Shown one piece after another: positions 71-34,255 of a DNA stretch of 51,461 nt. A program made the translations under genes and the position numbers. The first letter of the stretch is position 1, and the number at the start of each line of letters is the position of its first letter. The stretch is taken from IMG/VR virus record IMGVR_UViG_3300020129_000348, positions 1 to 51,461 of that record; one strand, 5' to 3'. This DNA is from a virus. The notes under the pieces were generated by a model. That model made no database searches, had not been told where the DNA came from, and saw only the letters and a list, made by a program, of their open reading frames with translations.

Positions 71-3000
71 ATGGAACGCCAATCAATCAGTGAAACAGCT
101 TATCACGACATTCTAGAACCATCATATGAAGACTTTCTAAAGTCCAAAATAATAGTAACTCCAGAACGAGGAGCACAGTTCAATCCAGACATCAACCCCA
201 AGCTCTTCTGGTTCCAACAAGCAATCTGCCGTTGGGCAATCCGCGGCGGCAACAGGGCGATATTCGCAAACTTCGGACTAGGGAAGACGAACATGCAGAT
301 TCAGATCTGTAAAGCGATTCTCGATCACGTAGACGGCTCAGGCGTGATTATTTGTCCCTTGGGAGTAAAGGACCAATTTGTCCAGGATGCAAAGAAATTC
401 TTCGGCCTGCACTTCCAATACGTACGGACGAATGAAGAGCACGCCCGCATGACCGATGAAGGCCAAAGGTATTTTTTAACAAACTACGAACGCGTCCGGG
501 ATGGAGCGATCTACCCGAACCGTTTTCAGGCGTTGTCCTCGCTCGATGAAGCCGACGTATTGCGTTCCTTCGGTTCCAAAACGTACCAAACCTTCCTAAC
601 ACTCTTCGATAAAGTACCTTTCAAGTACGTCTGCACCGCAACCCCTTCACCTAACCGATACAAGGAACTGATTCACTACGCCGGCTTCTTGGGCATAATG
701 GACACAGGACAGGCCTTAACCAGGTGGTTCAAGCGCGACTCTTCACAGGCGGGGAATCTCAAACTACATCCCCATAAGGAGCGGGAGTTCTGGCTATGGG
801 TTTCCACCTGGGCCGCATTTTTAACCAAACCGTCCGACATCTGCCTTTGCCGGGAGCGTGGAGTCGTTTGCAAGTGCGATGAAGGTTACGACCTTCCGCC
901 GCTCCACATTCACAGACATCGGCTCCCCGTCGATCATTCAACTGCGGGCTACGATTCGTGGGGGCAAGGAAAACTTCTACGCAACGCAGCTACAAGCCTA
1001 CGTGAGGGCGCCAGAGAAAAACGGGATTCGATGGAAGCCAGAATTCAGGAGTGCCGCCGCATCATAGACAACGAGCCACTGCGGACGCATTGGATCATCT
1101 GGCATTCCCTTGAAGACGAGCGCCGGGCAATCGAGCAGGAGATTCCCGAAGCGGTCACGGTTTACGGAACACAAGACTTGGAAGAGCGGGAAGAAGCAAT
1201 TCGGGCTTTTTCGGATGGAGAGTCCGAGTTCCTCGCCACGAAATTAAGCATTGCGGGAAGCGGAACAAACCTGCAACGGCACTGCCACCGGGCAATCTAT
1301 TTGGGACTCGACTTTAAGTTTCGGGATTTCATCCAAGGCGTTCACCGGATCTACCGCTTCCTCCAGGCGAACGAAGTCCACATTTACCTGATCTACACCG
1401 AATCGGAAGATCCAATCTTTGAAGAACTCATGCGGAAGTGGGACCAAGACAGGGAGCTTAGAAAAATCATGACTGACATCATTCGGAAGTACGGATTGAA
1501 CAACGCAGGTGCGGGAGCGGAGATGCAACGCTCAATCGGGCTATCCAGACAGGAAGTGAAGGGCGAACGCTTCACCGCGGTGAACAATGACAACATCCCG
1601 GAGATGGCCGCAATGCCTGAGAACTCCATTGACCTGCTAATCACTTCAGTGCCATTCAGCGACCACTACGAGTACACCGAACTTTACAACGACTTCGGAC
1701 ACAACGACGGAGACGAAGGCTTTTTTGCACAGATGGATTTTCTAACACCGGAGATTTTGCGGACGCTGAAGCCCGGCCGGTTGGCATGTATTCATGTCAA
1801 GGACCGCATCGTCTACGGCTCCGTCTCAAACCTAGGCATGTACTCAGTCAATCCGTTTTCAGATAAATGCGTGGCGCACTTCCGCAAGCACGGATTGATC
1901 TACTGCGGACGAATCACCATCGTGACCGACGTCGTGAGAGAGAATAATCAGACGTACCGATTGGGATGGACGGAAAACTCAAAAGACGGAACCAAGATGG
2001 GCGTTGGCTCACCGGAATACGTTCTGCTGTTTCGAAAACTCCCGTCCGATTTATCGAAGTCGTACGCTGATCAGCCAGTGATTCACGAGAAGCCGATGGT
2101 TGAATGCTCCGAGCACGACTGGACTGAGGGTAGCCCACCGGGACCGTGTAAGAAGTGTGGCACACCGTTCGGGACGATGTACGCGACACAAGTTCCGTTT
2201 CAAGACGGCTTGCCGATGATTCCAGGCACGGGCTATTCCCGAGGCCGCTGGCAGTTCGACGCGCACTCGTTCTGGCGCAGCTCCGGGAATCGCTTTCTAT
2301 CGCCCGAGGAAATCGGCTCCATGCGCATGGACGACCTTCGTAGACTCTGGCGGCAATACGCGTCGTCGAAGATTTACGACTTTCAAGAGCACGTGCGAAC
2401 CGCCGAGGAAATGGAGAAGAGAGGGATTCTACCGTCATCCTTCATGGCACTCGACCCGCCGAATCCCGGTAGTGAATGGGTATGGGACGACGTGACGCGC
2501 ATGCGCACGCTGAACACAGAACAGTCGCGCGGCCGGCTTGAGCAGCACATTTGTCCTTTACAGCTCGATGTAGTAGAGCGATTGATTGAACGGTATTCCA
2601 ATCCCGGCGAACTCGTACTTGACCCGTTCGCTGGAATCTTCACCGTCCCCTACGTTGCAGTCAATAAACAACGGCGAGGCTTCGGAATTGAACTCAACGC
2701 CGATTATTTTCACGACGGAGTTTCCTACTGCCGGGCAGCCGAAGTGAAAGTCACCAGCCCAACACTGTTCGACGTGCTGGATTCAACACCAGCCTTCGAA
2801 CCACCGTTCATCGCGACCGCTTACGATCCCAATGATCGAGCATCGATGCAGCACGCTACGGAAGTTTTGGACGATGCTATGCGAGTGGCGAACGAAACCG
2901 AGATTGGACTCCAGCAGAACCTGCAACAGTTTCAACAGCCGATTGGACTTGATCCGTTGAGTGAGCCGGGCGATCCGCCGACACAGCCCGCCGCACCTCT

Positions 3001-3250
3001 ACCTTATAACGCTTCCCCCACTGCCTACAGCGCTTTATTGGAACGCGCACACAGAGAAGCTTCTCAAAAACGGGAACCGGGAGAATCAGACGATACATTT
3101 CGCGACCGCCGATTGAAACGCGTAATGGAATTAGATCTGGCACACGACCGCGAAGTGCTTCAGAGCGCGAACGCCGCCAAGGATCAACCTACGAACAGCA
3201 GCCGAAAAGAGCGCCAACCAAAAAAGACGAAGAAAGGAAAATTGAAGTGA
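71..3250 (+). CDS. SNF2/DEAD-type helicase fused to N4/N6 DNA methyltransferase
   Basis: The 1059-residue protein joins two enzymes. The N-terminal half is a superfamily 2 helicase: Walker A ANFGLGKT near residue 66, LDEAD near 160, TATP near 189, and motif VI QGVHRIYR near 422. The second half is a beta-class amino-methyltransferase in permuted order: a motif IV-like TSVPFSDHYEY near 525, a Cys/His cluster near 680-696, then motif I LDPFAGIF near 850. Motif IV reads SVPF where SPPF or DPPY is usual, so the catalytic site may be modified. Such fusions are known in phages and plausibly remodel and methylate the element's own DNA. The start is chosen on AGAGG five bases upstream. The last 30 residues lie in a cassette 3' arm, and the Lys-rich C terminus is therefore repeat-encoded. 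Confidence 0.85.
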   Translation: MERQSISETAYHDILEPSYEDFLKSKIIVTPERGAQFNPDINPKLFWFQQAICRWAIRGGNRAIFANFGLGKTNMQIQICKAILDHVDGSGVIICPLGVKDQFVQDAKKFFGLHFQYVRTNEEHARMTDEGQRYFLTNYERVRDGAIYPNRFQALSSLDEADVLRSFGSKTYQTFLTLFDKVPFKYVCTATPSPNRYKELIHYAGFLGIMDTGQALTRWFKRDSSQAGNLKLHPHKEREFWLWVSTWAAFLTKPSDICLCRERGVVCKCDEGYDLPPLHIHRHRLPVDHSTAGYDSWGQGKLLRNAATSLREGAREKRDSMEARIQECRRIIDNEPLRTHWIIWHSLEDERRAIEQEIPEAVTVYGTQDLEEREEAIRAFSDGESEFLATKLSIAGSGTNLQRHCHRAIYLGLDFKFRDFIQGVHRIYRFLQANEVHIYLIYTESEDPIFEELMRKWDQDRELRKIMTDIIRKYGLNNAGAGAEMQRSIGLSRQEVKGERFTAVNNDNIPEMAAMPENSIDLLITSVPFSDHYEYTELYNDFGHNDGDEGFFAQMDFLTPEILRTLKPGRLACIHVKDRIVYGSVSNLGMYSVNPFSDKCVAHFRKHGLIYCGRITIVTDVVRENNQTYRLGWTENSKDGTKMGVGSPEYVLLFRKLPSDLSKSYADQPVIHEKPMVECSEHDWTEGSPPGPCKKCGTPFGTMYATQVPFQDGLPMIPGTGYSRGRWQFDAHSFWRSSGNRFLSPEEIGSMRMDDLRRLWRQYASSKIYDFQEHVRTAEEMEKRGILPSSFMALDPPNPGSEWVWDDVTRMRTLNTEQSRGRLEQHICPLQLDVVERLIERYSNPGELVLDPFAGIFTVPYVAVNKQRRGFGIELNADYFHDGVSYCRAAEVKVTSPTLFDVLDSTPAFEPPFIATAYDPNDRASMQHATEVLDDAMRVANETEIGLQQNLQQFQQPIGLDPLSEPGDPPTQPAAPLPYNASPTAYSALLERAHREASQKREPGESDDTFRDRRLKRVMELDLAHDREVLQSANAAKDQPTNSSRKERQPKKTKKGKLK
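3158..3218 (+). repeat. Cassette 3' arm (solo)
   Basis: It reads CTTCAGAGCGCGAACGC at one end and GAGCGCCAAC at the other, with GCGC pairing to GCGC. It overlaps the 3' end of the helicase-methyltransferase gene and encodes its tail (LQSANAAKDQ). The preceding arm, at 1-52, has the same orientation. Confidence 0.85.
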
Positions 3251-3507: not shown

Positions 3508-4379
3508 CCCCCGCCGAACCGAAACGTAATCCGTGGAGCCGGGTGTTTCACGCCGACGAGGTGTTTCAGTTTCAGGGAAACACCTGCGAAGAGATCGGCC
3601 TGACGATGCGCTTACGCTGGTACGCAGCGGCACATAACGGCATCCCGGCTACCGAAGACGCTCTGATTCGCATCGCAAAACAGTCCGGATTGACGCGCAA
3701 CCGCTTCATCAAACTGTGGAGTATTTTGAGTGAAAAATTCACAGAAATCGACGGTCTACTGTTTTACATAGGAGACGACGAGAGGCGAAAGGAAGCCGAA
3801 GTTGAATCGGCTAAGTCACGGGAAGCAGGCAAGAAAGGTGCCGAGATCCGCTGGAAGGACCGCAGGCAAAAATTAACCGTCGTCCCAGAATCGCCCATAG
3901 CCCCCCCATTTTTTCAGGATAGCCACCACTACCACTACCAATCCCAGGTTGAGACTTTAGAGGGGGGTGGACCACTACTACCCCCCAACCCCCCGGAGGA
4001 AGTAGTAGACCCCACCCCACAAGCAGAAGATCAACCCCAGGAGTTTGCGTTAACCGCACCGCTTTCCGACCAGGAATACCAAGAGTTTGCAATTCACTCC
4101 GCATCGGTAGGGCTTGGAGTTCCTAGCCGGAAACTCTGTGAACGGATTCGCGTTAAGTTCCACGCTAAATATCCAGACATGCCCGTCTCAGAAATTGTAA
4201 AGAGCCTACCCAAATTCGAACGGCAAAAAACAGCAGGGCTGTGGGAGACTCTCGATATCGACCAACTACAACTACAAGCCCTCAACCAGCACTTGGCGAG
4301 AGACATCCCACGGAAGCCCAATAGCAGTCAGGACCTCGAACGAAAATTAGCTATGGCGAGAGAACGGAGCGCACAATGA
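3504..4379 (+). CDS. YdaU/DUF1376-like phage replication protein
   Basis: The protein has 291 residues and a GTG start overlapping the upstream stop. The first 110 residues resemble the YdaU/DUF1376 winged-helix-like domain of phage replication loci: an early run on a target number of states, an ALIRIAKQSGL helix, then a KLWSIL/KFTEIDGLLFY segment followed by a basic linker with AGKKGAEIRW. The middle is low-complexity and Pro-rich, and a helical C-terminal part follows. It probably loads or recruits replication factors, the place held by O/P-type genes in phages. It overlaps the next gene by ATGA. Confidence 0.65.
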   Translation: MTPAEPKRNPWSRVFHADEVFQFQGNTCEEIGLTMRLRWYAAAHNGIPATEDALIRIAKQSGLTRNRFIKLWSILSEKFTEIDGLLFYIGDDERRKEAEVESAKSREAGKKGAEIRWKDRRQKLTVVPESPIAPPFFQDSHHYHYQSQVETLEGGGPLLPPNPPEEVVDPTPQAEDQPQEFALTAPLSDQEYQEFAIHSASVGLGVPSRKLCERIRVKFHAKYPDMPVSEIVKSLPKFERQKTAGLWETLDIDQLQLQALNQHLARDIPRKPNSSQDLERKLAMARERSAQ

Positions 4380-4786
4380 AACCAACCGAAGAGAAGTTTG
4401 TCGAAGCAGTTCACGCAATGGGACTCCTGATCCCATTTTTTCCAAAGGACGACATCGCGCAGGCGATCATCGCGAGACATCTTTCAAGTTTCGTAAACAC
4501 AGAAACGGAACTCCAATGGCTCACAGCAGCGGCATGCGGATCAATTCGTGACTGGGAACGAAACGGAGGACTTCCGGAACTCCGGGGACTCTTCTGCACA
4601 CAATTCACACCCGCCGATGGAGTCGCCGCCTACTGCACTACTCCCGGTTACCGAGCCTCAGACCTCGAAGCACAATTTTTCGCGAAAGAACTGGAAGACA
4701 ATAACCGGCGATACGAAGAGTTCCGGCAACTCGCTGGATCGGACGCGAAACCGTTCCCTCTACCAAAACCGAAGCTAATCCAGTAG
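4376..4786 (+). CDS. Conserved replication-cluster protein
   Basis: This 136-residue protein starts with ATG overlapping the upstream stop. It is mainly helical, with a centre reading WERNGGLPELRGLFC, a phrase I associate with small proteins next to phage replication genes. No catalytic motif is visible. Its position directly after the YdaU-like gene suggests a replication accessory role. That is inferred from context only. Confidence 0.55.
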   Translation: MKPTEEKFVEAVHAMGLLIPFFPKDDIAQAIIARHLSSFVNTETELQWLTAAACGSIRDWERNGGLPELRGLFCTQFTPADGVAAYCTTPGYRASDLEAQFFAKELEDNNRRYEEFRQLAGSDAKPFPLPKPKLIQ

Positions 4787-4813
4787 TCTCAGCCGAAAAA
4801 TAGGGCGATTTTA

Positions 4814-4856
4814 GTAGTCCGTACTCGCGTGTACGTAGTCCATACACGCTAGACAA
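4814..4856 (+). promoter_or_regulatory. Two 21-bp operator-like direct repeats
   Basis: Two imperfect 21-base repeats lie end to end, each beginning GTAGTCC and sharing TAC and CGC at the same spacing. A 21-base period puts both on one face of the helix. A TATACT box follows at 4868-4873 and the AGGAGG site of the next gene at 4883. A third partial copy (TAGTCTC) overlaps the preceding stop codon. This looks like a protein-binding operator at a promoter, although no good -35 hexamer is seen. Confidence 0.45.
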
Positions 4857-4891
4857 CAAGATTTTGATATACTTTCCTTTCAGGAGGTCGC

Positions 4892-5194
4892 TTGGCCGAT
4901 TTTAAACCACGGAAAAGTAGATGTACAAACTGCGCCGAACAGTATCTTCAGACTCGTGAGGATCACAGGTTTTGCCAACCAAAATGCCGCTGGGAATTCC
5001 ATCGCAACGGCGGTGTGTCGTTCGCAAAAACAAAATACATTATCGAGCAGGAAGTGGAACGCCGGGTTGCACAAGCCGAGAGCCGGCTTGCAAAGAAGTT
5101 CTCCGACATCCTACGAAAGCGGCACATGGAAACACCTGACGAGTTACTCGCTCTCGTGCAAGATCATCCCGGCGTGACGGTCGCGAAAATATGA
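4892..5194 (+). CDS. Small zinc-finger, coiled-coil protein
   Basis: The 100-residue protein starts at TTG five bases after a perfect AGGAGG. It has C-x2-C (CTNC) near residue 11 and C-x3-C (CQPKC) near residue 29, making a single zinc finger of the cut-down type seen in small phage DNA-binding proteins. A charged helix follows (about residues 50-80). It is the first gene after the only clear regulatory gap in the left cluster, so it may be a regulator. Function is not assigned. Confidence 0.6.
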
Positions 5195-5973
5195 AACCAC
5201 ACATCGCCCTACTCGCTCTCGTACTCTCTGGTTGTACCCACACCTCAATCAGTCCACCCTCAATTCCTCCAATTCCTCAAGCTCGGGCTTCGGTTCAACA
5301 ACCCCAGGCACAACCTAAGCCCGTCCCTCCTTTTGCGATCTTTAGCGCGAACCCGGTGAATTTAGGACAGCCTTCCGTTACCAGCGGTCTTACACCGTCA
5401 GGCCCGTTCTTTATCGGCTACACAAGTCCGAGCGTGGCTACATTCTTTGCGCTTGATCCGGCTGGCAGTATCTCTCTCGATCAGTCTCAGCCGTCGTTTC
5501 CGTTCTTAAAAGCCATCGGGACGCAAGGACCAACTGGTGAGCAAGGTCCTCCGGGTCCTCAAGGTGCAACCGGGCCACCGGGCGCAATTGGTCCGATTGG
5601 AGCACCTGGCATCCAAGGCCCAGTTGGATTACAGGGACCGCAAGGACTTCAGGGCGCAGTCGGTCCACAAGGACCACCTGGAATAGGGGCCGTCAATCAA
5701 CAGCAAATAATCGAGCACATCGGCAATGCAACCATGCTGCCCGATGGAACCTGGACGCTGGTGGGGGAAACGATCAACACCAGCCGGAATCCGCAAGCGG
5801 TTTTCACAATCACGAAGGACCGGCAACCCCTAATCTACGCCGACTACAACATCACGTTTGATCCGAAGGACGCTCAGCCTACAACGTGGTGGAATGCTCA
5901 CGTAATCGTTAAGCCCACTACGCCGTGGCCCGCCAGTTCGATTATTGAGATGAGATGGAGCACGCTGCAATGA
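5191..5973 (+). CDS. Collagen-like surface lipoprotein
   Basis: The 260-residue protein starts with ATG overlapping the upstream stop. A short signal peptide ends in the lipobox LSGC at residues 12-15, so the mature protein should be lipid-anchored. After a Pro/Gln-rich linker, residues about 110-165 form some 18 uninterrupted Gly-X-Y triplets ([12 protein letters not shown] and similar), which would trimerise as a collagen helix. A C-terminal domain of about 90 residues follows. Collagen-like trimers are common in viral fibres and spikes. With lipid attachment this could sit in a viral membrane, or alternatively in the infected cell envelope. Confidence 0.75.
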
Positions 5974-31430: not shown

Positions 31431-31480
31431 TACTGAAGTTCCATTGCATTCCTCTCGCTGACGGGTTTAGAATTGCGTTA

Positions 31481-31547
31481 TGTTCTGGCGCTCTTCTCAC
31501 CATCCGTTCGCAGCTTGCGACTTTCAGACGTTCGCGCAAATGAGGCA
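31481..31547 (+). repeat. Cassette 5' arm of unit 6
   Basis: TGTTCTGGCGCTCTTCTC outer and GTTCGCGCAAATGAGGCA inner. An inner CGCA/TGCG stem is present. GAGG serves the GTG start of the ASCH gene. Confidence 0.85.
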
Positions 31548-31550
31548 GTG

Positions 31551-32117
31551 GTGAAAGCTCTCTCGTTGACCCAACCGTGGGCTTCGCTTGTGGCCGTTGG
31601 CGCAAAGAGAATCGAGACGCGATCTTGGCGAACGCCATACCGCGGGGCGTTGGCGATTCACGCAGCGAAGCGTTTCCCGGCAGACGCCCGCGATTTCACC
31701 TACACAAAGATGGCGCGAGAATCTCTCGTGCCGTACTACGCCGAGCCGGATCACTGGCTTGGTGTTACCGACAAACCAACTCAGCTTGACAAAAATCTTC
31801 CTCTCGGTTGTGTTATCGCCACATGCCGCCTGATCTCATGTATTCCGACAAGAGAGATTGAACTCGCTAAGAAGATAGGTGTAGACCAAGCCGTTATCCC
31901 ACTCTGTCCCGATTTCGAGATCACGGAGCAAGAGTACGCCTTTGGCAATTACAGTTTGGGTCGATGGGCCTGGCTTCTCGCTGACATCAAACTACTCCCT
32001 GAACCAATACCAATAAGGGGAGCACGGTCTCTCTGGGAATGGGAGCCTGTTCATAGCGCGAACGGCATACCCTCCAAACCGCCCACCGAACCCGAGAAGA
32101 GCGCCAACGGAAAATGA
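31551..32117 (+). CDS. ASCH-domain protein (cargo of unit 6)
   Basis: The product has 188 residues from GTG, with GAGG supplied by the cassette arm. It reads MKALSLTQPWASLVAVGAKR, then ETRSW and YRGALAIHAAKRF, the core signature of ASCH (PUA-like) domains, with LGCVIATCRLISC and WAWLLADIKLL later. ASCH proteins bind RNA or modified bases. A lysine in GAKRIETRSW is typical. The tail (HSANGIPSKPPTEPEKSANG) is arm-encoded. Confidence 0.8.
   Translation: MKALSLTQPWASLVAVGAKRIETRSWRTPYRGALAIHAAKRFPADARDFTYTKMARESLVPYYAEPDHWLGVTDKPTQLDKNLPLGCVIATCRLISCIPTREIELAKKIGVDQAVIPLCPDFEITEQEYAFGNYSLGRWAWLLADIKLLPEPIPIRGARSLWEWEPVHSANGIPSKPPTEPEKSANGK
32051..32108 (+). repeat. Cassette 3' arm of unit 6
   Basis: TCATAGCGCGAACGG to GAGAAGAGCGCCAAC. 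GCGC/GCGC pairing is kept. It encodes the EKSANGK tail of the ASCH protein and runs into the recombinase start. Confidence 0.85.
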
Positions 32118-32746
32118 AGAAGTGTGCAATCTACATCCGAGTGAGCACACCCAAGAAAGTACCGGGCAAAGCAGCAGGCTCGGAAGTCTACCTGCAAAAT
32201 CCCGCAGTGCAACTAGAACCGTTGAAACAACTGGCCAGCATAATCAACGCGGAAGTATTCAAGGTGTACTCTGACCGGATGAGCGGAGCAAACACGAACC
32301 GGCCAGCTTATCGGGAACTGATGACCGATGCACGGCGCCGCCAGTTCCAAGTAGTAATCGTGTGGCGCTTCGACCGCTGGGCGCGATCGACACAAGAGCT
32401 AATCTCGACTCTCGAAGAATTCCAAGCGTTGGGCATCGACTTCATTTCACAGCAAGAAGCGATTGACACAAGTACGCCCATGGGCAAGTGCCTATTCACT
32501 ATCATTGCAGCCGTCGCGGAGATGGAGAGGCATGCAATCAAGGAACGGATTCGCGCCGGCATGGAGTACGCCCGCAATCATGGAACGAAGTCGGGTAAGG
32601 AAGTGGGGCGACCGAAACGGGTGTTTCGGAGGGATGAGGCGATCGCGCTTCGACAAGAAGGCTTGCCCTTCCGGGAGATCGCACGGCGTCTCAAAGTAGG
32701 GGATGGTACAGTCAGGCGGGCATGCGCCACAATGCTATCGGCGTAA
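32114..32746 (+). CDS. Serine recombinase (resolvase/invertase family)
   Basis: The 210-residue protein carries the complete small serine recombinase layout: the catalytic Ser in YIRVSTP at residue 11, SDRMSGANTNRPAYRELM, VIVWRFDRWARS, an E-helix EMERHAIKERIRAG, and a C-terminal helix-turn-helix (FREIARRLKVGDGTVRRA). Such enzymes resolve or invert DNA between short sites. It starts six bases after the unit 6 arm, overlaps the ASCH stop by ATGA, and is the only recombinase visible here. It is therefore a candidate, unproven, for mobilising the cassettes. Confidence 0.9.
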   Translation: MKKCAIYIRVSTPKKVPGKAAGSEVYLQNPAVQLEPLKQLASIINAEVFKVYSDRMSGANTNRPAYRELMTDARRRQFQVVIVWRFDRWARSTQELISTLEEFQALGIDFISQQEAIDTSTPMGKCLFTIIAAVAEMERHAIKERIRAGMEYARNHGTKSGKEVGRPKRVFRRDEAIALRQEGLPFREIARRLKVGDGTVRRACATMLSA

Positions 32747-32813: not shown

Positions 32814-33056
32814 GTGGCTCAGGAACAGTTAGAAACTAACAAAACGGCTACCGTAACCGTCTCCCTGAATCTCGGAACGTGGCTTGCAATCCAAACAGCC
32901 CTTGTCGCTTTCTCGTTTGCTCCCGAACGCAGAAAGTTCATGTGCGCGTTATTGAAGAAGTTCAATCGGGCGCTTTATATTGCACGGGGAGGCTCGGCGA
33001 AAGAACATGATGAGATCGTAAAACGCATCGCCGAATCGAAAAAGCGAGGCTGGTGA
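32814..33056 (+). CDS. Small basic helical protein
   Basis: The 80-residue protein has a GTG start. It is helical with a basic C-terminal half (FAPERRKFMCALLKKFNRAL, IAESKKRGW). Its stop overlaps the start region of the methyltransferase locus. It may be a small regulator. No motif is recognised. Confidence 0.5.
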   Translation: MAQEQLETNKTATVTVSLNLGTWLAIQTALVAFSFAPERRKFMCALLKKFNRALYIARGGSAKEHDEIVKRIAESKKRGW

Positions 33057-33061
33057 GGTTG

Positions 33062-34255
33062 ATGTGGCTATACATACCCTCAGCATTTGTACTGGAGGAA
33101 CCGCGGGACTTGACTTGGGACTTGAAATCAGTCTCGGAGAGTGCCGCCCAATCTGTTACGTGGAGATCGAAATCACGGCTGTCCAAACTCTGGTATCGCG
33201 CATTCGCGAAGGGTCACTTCCGGACGCTCCCATTTTTAGCGACCTCTCAAGATTCAATGGAAAAAGGCTTCGAGGTTTGGTTGACATCGTTTCAGCGGGA
33301 CTGCCCTGCCAGCCCTACTCCGTCGCCGGAAAACGAAAAGAGCATAAAGACAAGCGGGCGATCTGGCCGGAATTCATTCGAGTGGTGGGAGAAGTGCTCC
33401 CGTCATTGGTATTCCTCGAAAATGTCCCTGAGTTTCTTAAGCACTTCAACCCAGTCGGCAAAGAACTACAAAGAATGGGCTACGTGGTTGAGGAACCGCT
33501 CTTCCTCTCAGCTTCGGACGTTGGGGCTTCGCACAAACGGACCCGTATCTTCATACTGGCCTACCGTGAATGCGTCGGAAAAAGCTGGCTACAATCGCTC
33601 TGCTTACGAGGGAGCAGTGATCCGACCGCACTTGGAATCGGCGGCGAGGAACTGGCCATCTCCACGATCCGAGGACGGGGAGAGTTGCGGCAACCATCCG
33701 GGAGTGACGGACTCACTGACGGGCGCAACGGGCTTGTGGGTAACACCGAATACGCCGAGCGGGGGACCGAACACGAAGAGCACGGCAACGCATCAAGGGG
33801 AACTGGGCCTGGATGGTCAAGCCAAGCTGTGGACAACTCCGCAAGCACACGATCAACAGGGCGGCAATCCGAACCGGGTCAAGAGATTTGGGACGAAGCA
33901 CGGAGGAGCGAATCTAGCGGACGATGTGACGCTGTGGGGAACGCCGAATGCTCACGAGCGGACACAAACTCCGAGGGATGTCCATCTACTCCATCGACCT
34001 CGGACCAGGCCCGGGATTTTTTCGCTCCAGGACCTTCCTCGGAACTCTGGCGAGACATCCTTGAGCACGCCCCTTGGCTTGCCCCGGCGATTGAATCCGG
34101 CTTTCGTGTGTTGGTTGATGGGACTCCCCTGGTTTTGGACGAATCCCGCACAGATCAACTCCGCTCGGTTGGAAACGCAGTCGTACCTTTGCAGGCAGCG
34201 GTTGCTTTTACATTACTTGTGCGGAAAGCCTCAGAGGGCGCACGGTAGAAACTGA
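33062..34255 (+). CDS. WPTP-repeat phage protein overprinted on the methyltransferase
   Basis: A 397-residue frame starts at ATG two bases before the methyltransferase GTG and runs the whole length in another frame. It is not random: it contains YWPTVNASEKAGYN, WPSPRSEDGE, LWVTPNTPSGGPNTKST, LWTTPQAHDQQGGNPNRV, LWGTPNAHE and finally LNPAFVCWLMGLPWFWTNP. These match a phage protein family I know by its W-P-T-P repeats and LNPxFVxWLMGxP end, often found next to cytosine methyltransferases. Whether both frames are translated is unknown. Confidence 0.5.
   Translation: MWLYIPSAFVLEEPRDLTWDLKSVSESAAQSVTWRSKSRLSKLWYRAFAKGHFRTLPFLATSQDSMEKGFEVWLTSFQRDCPASPTPSPENEKSIKTSGRSGRNSFEWWEKCSRHWYSSKMSLSFLSTSTQSAKNYKEWATWLRNRSSSQLRTLGLRTNGPVSSYWPTVNASEKAGYNRSAYEGAVIRPHLESAARNWPSPRSEDGESCGNHPGVTDSLTGATGLWVTPNTPSGGPNTKSTATHQGELGLDGQAKLWTTPQAHDQQGGNPNRVKRFGTKHGGANLADDVTLWGTPNAHERTQTPRDVHLLHRPRTRPGIFSLQDLPRNSGETSLSTPLGLPRRLNPAFVCWLMGLPWFWTNPAQINSARLETQSYLCRQRLLLHYLCGKPQRAHGRN
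33064..34248 (+). CDS. C5 cytosine DNA methyltransferase
   Basis: The 394-residue protein starts at GTG with GAGG upstream. Motif I is SICTGGTAGLDLGL, motif IV AGLPCQPYSVAGKR with the catalytic Cys near 82, motif VI FLENVPEF, motif VIII ASDVGASHKRTRIFILA, and motif X SVGNAVVPLQAAVAF. The target recognition region (about residues 180-330) is Ser/Gly/Arg-rich and low in complexity because the overlapping frame constrains it. It probably protects the element from host restriction. The end, ASEGAR, is encoded by a cassette arm. Confidence 0.85.
   Translation: MAIHTLSICTGGTAGLDLGLEISLGECRPICYVEIEITAVQTLVSRIREGSLPDAPIFSDLSRFNGKRLRGLVDIVSAGLPCQPYSVAGKRKEHKDKRAIWPEFIRVVGEVLPSLVFLENVPEFLKHFNPVGKELQRMGYVVEEPLFLSASDVGASHKRTRIFILAYRECVGKSWLQSLCLRGSSDPTALGIGGEELAISTIRGRGELRQPSGSDGLTDGRNGLVGNTEYAERGTEHEEHGNASRGTGPGWSSQAVDNSASTRSTGRQSEPGQEIWDEARRSESSGRCDAVGNAECSRADTNSEGCPSTPSTSDQARDFFAPGPSSELWRDILEHAPWLAPAIESGFRVLVDGTPLVLDESRTDQLRSVGNAVVPLQAAVAFTLLVRKASEGAR

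Follow-up and report, generated by a model that had tools for sequence, protein, structure and literature searches.

To our knowledge, there are few documented cases in prokaryotes of two functional frames that overlap over a long stretch of the same strand. In the methyltransferase M.EcoHK31I, the gene for the smaller polypeptide lies inside the gene for the larger one, in another frame. C5-cytosine methyltransferases divide into a large domain, with motifs I to VIII and X, and a small domain, with the target-recognition region (TRD) and motif IX, and fragments of C5-methyltransferases can assemble into an active enzyme (PMC3404938). The same source describes M.EcoHK31I (Lee, Kam and Shaw 1995) as two polypeptides, the larger with motifs I to VIII and X and the smaller with motif IX, with the predicted TRD assigned to the larger subunit, and it lists M.AquI (Karreman and de Waard 1990) as a two-subunit C5-methyltransferase (PMC3404938). 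The ShiLan domain is an inserted HNH endonuclease that lies out of frame in a phage methylase gene and is a proposed homing element (PMC11855218).

The DNA that we analyzed (the window) is a 51,461-base IMG/VR record that contains two overlapping open frames on its plus strand, as the earlier note had reported. The MT frame (33064 to 34248; the proposed alpha polypeptide) starts with GTG and encodes 394 amino acids with the large domain of a C5-cytosine methyltransferase. The WP frame (33062 to 34255; the proposed beta polypeptide) is at +1 relative to MT and starts with ATG at 33062, and an alternative in-frame GTG at 33053 is also possible as its start. The sequence confirms the shared start described in that note, since the WP and MT starts overlap within ATGTG (33062 to 33066), inside a shared initiation region (33052 to 33066, plus strand) in which GGTGAGG (33052 to 33058) is followed by the ATG of WP at 33062 and the GTG of MT at 33064. 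There are no stop codons in the WP frame, compared to 10.6 expected when the MT protein is fixed and window codon usage is applied, and 6.4 expected from within-gene synonymous codon shuffling, where 0 of 2000 draws were as low. By the same resampling, the third frame has 18 stops compared to 15 to 17 expected. The remaining genes of the window have nothing comparable in their +1 frame. Thus, stop counts made with the MT protein held fixed rule out a WP frame that is open by chance. Elsewhere in the window, a 1059-amino-acid protein (71 to 3250, plus strand) has an N6/N4 DNA methylase domain (PF01555, 1.3e-13), which makes it this phage's second DNA methyltransferase, and also a weak helicase C-terminal match. 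The segment just upstream of the C5-methyltransferase (31473 to 32746, plus strand) encodes an ASCH-domain protein and then a serine resolvase.

The MT product matches PF00145 (6e-28, residues 12 to 169) and has the catalytic and cofactor motifs I to VIII, with PCQ and ENV motifs present. These motifs occupy 33064 to 33567 (plus strand), where the PF00145 match lies and where selection acts on the MT frame. They are followed by an unconstrained linker (33568 to 34020, plus strand) that stands where the small domain would be, and then by a FAPGP...LAPA segment (34021 to 34089, plus strand), just before motif IX, which by alignment is conserved in the MT frame only and has an MT-like codon pattern. 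The motif X helix (34147 to 34227, plus strand; RTDQLRSVGNAVVPLQAAVAF) is again in the MT frame, where we identified motif X as RSVGNAVVPLQAA; it has an MT-like codon pattern and is a confident helix in the structural model. AlphaFold2 predicted the MT product with confidence at residues 1 to 186 and at the C-terminal motif X helix, with residues 187 to 320 disordered and the small domain absent from the alpha model. When this model was used as a Foldseek query, the top matches were M.HaeIII (1.6e-12) and M.HhaI. The MT frame therefore keeps its catalytic motifs, I to VIII and X, as previously claimed, on the basis of both PF00145 and alignment.

The WP product matched phrog_1008, named "DNA methyltransferase," at 3.8e-19; no Pfam or NCBIfam family was matched, and a WP profile had no match to PDB sequences at E≤10. 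Its WPTP modules (33557 to 34090, plus strand), which are selected in the WP frame, are followed by motif IX (34091 to 34147, plus strand; LNPAFVCWLMGLPWFWTNP), which has a WP-frame codon pattern in 77 bacterial-genome loci. A motif IX beside the target-recognition region is thus found in the +1 frame and is absent from the MT frame; the C-terminal LNPxFVEWLMGFPxGWT of WP resembles motif IX of C5-methyltransferases, as in M.HhaI. In two single-chain proteins, Rita gp76 and prophiGD91-2 gp27, one ORF carries motifs I to VIII, several LLPTP modules, RLAPAFSEWMMGWPAGW (motif IX), and LRIIGNGVVPQQA (motif X). The WP profile matched both proteins downstream of motif VIII (3e-18 and 6e-17), with no shuffled control at E≤1, and phrog_1008, the profile matched by WP, matched the two proteins at 2e-61 and 4e-58. 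In loci L164, L165, L173, and L174, the motif IX found in WP is followed by motif X in one frame. Because these single-chain homologues carry the same segments in the methyltransferase frame, we assign WP, by homology, as the small domain (variable region and motif IX) of the same C5-methyltransferase. For the same reason we dropped the view of WP as an independent family, and with it the earlier claim that two unrelated families overlap here, as WP is the missing small domain of MT's own enzyme. A stand-alone phage family was also rejected on the sampled loci, in which no WP was free-standing and each was accompanied by an overlapping or fused catalytic domain. From its position and homology, we propose that the WPTP region is the TRD. 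The AlphaFold2 model of the WP product alone was of low confidence (pLDDT 60, pTM 0.26).

A viral scan with WP identified 12 loci, and in all 12 there was an overlapping methyltransferase in the same phase. Profile scans yielded 70 new loci with the WP query and 80 with the MT query, and a WP match was present in 80 of the 80 MT-query loci, which are the best-scoring relatives and not a random sample. A close-relative scan by MT protein alone was too narrow and gave no match. Of the 142 deduplicated loci where both could be placed, 141 have WP at +1 relative to the enzyme, so the WP family, about whose phase the earlier note had asked, is almost always antiphase to a methyltransferase. The MT frame extended to the end of WP in 129 of these 142. 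A bacterial-genome scan on motif IX added 80 further loci, from Acidobacteria, Verrucomicrobia, Planctomycetes, Chloroflexi, Firmicutes, alpha- and betaproteobacteria, and others. Existing records vary in what they annotate: only the WP frame, as a cytosine-specific methyltransferase, in Acidovorax phage Alfacinha1 (L001); only the WP frame, as hypothetical, in Ssp-JY39 (L172); and only the MT frame in Rhynn (L170) and Marin (L171). At locus L020, a second, weaker copy of the overlapping pair (4370 to 5308) lies directly downstream of the first. At seven loci (L010, L045, L059, L064, L067, L068, and L078) both frames switch together mid-gene, through either assembly indels or real changes.

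We compared 42 disjoint homologue pairs, classing substitutions by their effect in both frames, and found that selection switches frame along the gene, acting on MT in motifs I to VIII, on WP in the middle, and on both at the C terminus. Over motifs I to VIII, the dN/dS ratio was 0.28 (first 100 residues) and 0.37 (rest) for MT, compared to 0.85 and 0.74 for WP. In the middle it was 1.11 for MT (95% interval, 0.89 to 1.47) and 0.22 for WP (0.16 to 0.29), and in the C-terminal part both frames were constrained, with ratios of 0.34 and 0.41. When rates are binned by 60 bases, MT codon position 3 shows a drop at the end of motif VIII, from 0.335 to 0.089, and there MT position 1, which is WP position 3, climbs from 0.142 to 0.275. 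The 77 bacterial-genome loci, compared in pairs that are not independent of each other, gave rates at MT positions 1/2/3 of 0.121/0.069/0.298 in motifs I to VIII, 0.279/0.052/0.055 in the middle, 0.227/0.061/0.070 in motif IX, and 0.119/0.052/0.190 after motif IX. In this sample, the variable codon position is therefore MT-like in motifs I to VIII and X and WP-like in the middle and motif IX. As a control, the middle of Rita-type single-chain relatives, for which there are few sequences, had rates of 0.131/0.120/0.506, a normal methyltransferase pattern. The synonymous-site comparison in both frames that the earlier note had proposed thus gives a divided answer, with WP constrained in the middle and nearly neutral in motifs I to VIII, and MT constrained in motifs I to VIII and neutral in the middle. 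Both frames are open from end to end, but protein constraint does not act on the two of them throughout. The coding evidence for both frames is strong. Dual coding is borne out by the WP frame, which has 0 stops compared to the 6 to 11 expected and is selected in the middle; its description as spanning a whole gene stands for openness, as both frames are open throughout, and fails for selection, which is divided along the gene.

Both frames also stay open across homologues. Among 115 loci, WP had 0 stops in the second half of motifs I to VIII, compared to 108 to 131 expected, and 3 in the middle, compared to 113 to 156 expected. Free interruption of one frame by stops, which was to have argued against dual coding, was thus not seen, and WP behaves as a conserved protein whose homologues keep the frame open and are selected as protein in the middle. 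MT had 0 stops in the same count, a biased value given that these loci were picked for having motifs I to VIII and X in one ORF. The loci from bacterial genomes are free of this bias, and among them MT had 16 stops in the middle compared to 242 expected, all within 3 of 76 loci, and WP had 0 in the second half of motifs I to VIII compared to 51 expected. Starts that overlap as [A/G/T]TGTG were found in 61 of 115 homologues. A second form, NTGAATG, in which the methyltransferase start lies four bases before the WP ATG and a TGA in the WP frame lies just upstream, was found in 31 of the 76 loci from bacterial genomes, among which 14 have NTGTG. At other loci, the sequence indicates that the WP start would have to lie inside motifs I to VIII.

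We consider it likely that a single orphan phage C5-cytosine methyltransferase is encoded here in the form of two polypeptides, made from overlapping frames and assembling as a heterodimer. Ribosomes starting at GTG 33064 would make alpha, with motifs I to VIII, an unstructured linker, and motif X, and ribosomes starting two bases earlier, at ATG 33062, with the same ribosome-binding site, would make beta, whose C-terminal part would be the DNA-recognition small domain (WPTP modules and motif IX). Alpha and beta would then form the active enzyme, beta providing the recognition domain in trans, and the enzyme would methylate phage DNA, probably as protection against host restriction. In this scheme we infer separate initiation, heterodimer assembly, methylation activity, target specificity of the WPTP region, and biological role. 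Several observations count against the two-chain model. The first approximately 150 residues of beta, which overlap motifs I to VIII, are weakly constrained; the FAPGP segment of alpha is conserved, which the model does not account for; a substantial minority of loci have neither clear start overlap; and the division between chains differs among relatives, because in one subgroup (S2) only the TRD is at +1.

The near neutrality of WP over motifs I to VIII (0.85 and 0.74) fits a frame that is a by-product of methyltransferase codons and untranslated, but the codon pattern in the middle is that of WP and not of MT, and stops there are depleted beyond what MT constraint accounts for (3 compared to 113 to 156). 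We regard this reading as extremely improbable overall, and the codon-position data refute it for the middle and motif IX. Programmed frameshifting would instead join the frames in one chain, with a +1 shift after motif VIII into WP and a return to MT for motif X. The selected segments taken in order (MT motifs I to VIII, WP TRD and motif IX, MT motif X) do make up a complete methyltransferase, and in many homologues the joined frames resemble a single chain, RxRVFILAT(P/A). However, this would require two opposite shifts, and it leaves unexplained the conserved overlapping starts, the open MT middle (16 stops, in 3 of 76 loci, compared to 242 expected), and the openness of WP in motifs I to VIII (0 stops compared to 51). 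Since each frame is fully open even where it is weakly constrained or unconstrained, both look translated, which favors two full polypeptides over frameshifting, and we consider frameshifting very unlikely.

It is also unlikely, though not to that degree, that WP is a separately functioning protein, such as a DNA-binding regulator, that has a common ancestry with the recognition region but has ceased to act together with the methyltransferase. In favor of such a protein, WP forms a complete ORF whose start is conserved, and its binding to alpha is a prediction. However, every WP in the sampled loci was accompanied by a catalytic domain, either overlapping or fused, no recognition region under constraint is present in MT itself, and split loci carry WPTP, motif IX, and motif X together in one ORF. 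A WP frame that arose as a ShiLan-type HNH insertion was rejected, as there was no HNH match in Pfam or NCBIfam and WP runs across the whole methyltransferase gene.

The two-polypeptide arrangement can also be followed among relatives. The window type, with motifs I to VIII and X in one ORF and motif IX at +1, is by far the commonest, and single-chain and split forms exist too, with one ORF carrying WPTP, motif IX, and motif X at the split loci. Subgroup S2, counted as single-chain, has motifs IX and X in the MT frame, yet the substitutions in its middle follow the +1 frame. A quickly built tree of 130 catalytic domains, many of whose branches are weak, implies a minimum of 5 frame changes for motif IX and 7 for motif X, and assembly errors may lie behind some of the switches. 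Such changes are as expected if either chain can carry these motifs. The WPTP modules recur in shuffled combinations, with 20 module families found in at least 5 loci and 9 of 61 co-occurring module pairs found in both orders. It is about an even chance, in our judgment, that these loci form a widespread enzyme class with two domains in two frames and one start site, reshuffled modules, and motifs IX and X moving between frames; the target would be changed by exchange of modules in one frame, with the other frame reading an unconstrained linker.

This whole-gene overlap recurs in hundreds of loci, in phages and prophages of many bacterial phyla, and it has a readable logic, in that each frame holds a separate domain of a single enzyme. 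The arrangement accounts for phage records in which either frame is named "DNA methyltransferase" or "hypothetical protein," and it suggests that gene finders restricted to a single ORF per locus miss half of these enzymes. If the two-polypeptide model is true, cloning the annotated frame alone would yield an inactive enzyme. Experiments on split methyltransferases, on dual initiation at starts two or four bases apart, and on the origin and upkeep of overlaps could also use these loci as testable systems.

Our search of the literature found no description of such an overlap in open-access papers and covered few subscription papers, a scope in which novelty is not proven. The nearest known enzymes to the window locus are M.EcoHK31I and M.AquI. 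Like M.EcoHK31I as described in PMC3404938, the window and most relatives have motifs I to VIII and X in the large chain and motif IX in the other, with the separate chains inferred here and the comparison made by description. Unlike in that account of M.EcoHK31I, the larger frame of the window has no constraint between motifs VIII and IX, and it is the other frame that carries the recognition modules. The split loci ArV1 ORF067a/b (Arthrobacter phage) and Samy gp49/50 (Streptomyces phage) are like M.AquI as outlined there: one ORF holds motifs I to VIII, and an overlapping +1 frame holds the PTP modules together with motifs IX and X; among beta-type proteins, Pfam gave a sub-threshold motif IX-X match for Samy gp50 only (E 0.2). 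The window departs from this outline of M.AquI in keeping motif X in the catalytic frame and in having an overlap that spans the whole gene. The single-chain enzymes Rita gp76 (Mycobacterium phage) and prophiGD91-2 gp27 belong to the same catalytic family and have homologous PTP modules, motif IX, and motif X; unlike the window, these two have all of these in one frame, and their +1 frame is interrupted by stops in the middle. The window shares with the ShiLan domain a second protein out of frame within a phage methylase gene, but its second frame is the predicted recognition half of the enzyme itself, with no insertion. This family differs from M.EcoHK31I and M.AquI in that the recognition region is also in the second frame, that the overlap spans the whole gene, and that the arrangement is widely spread.
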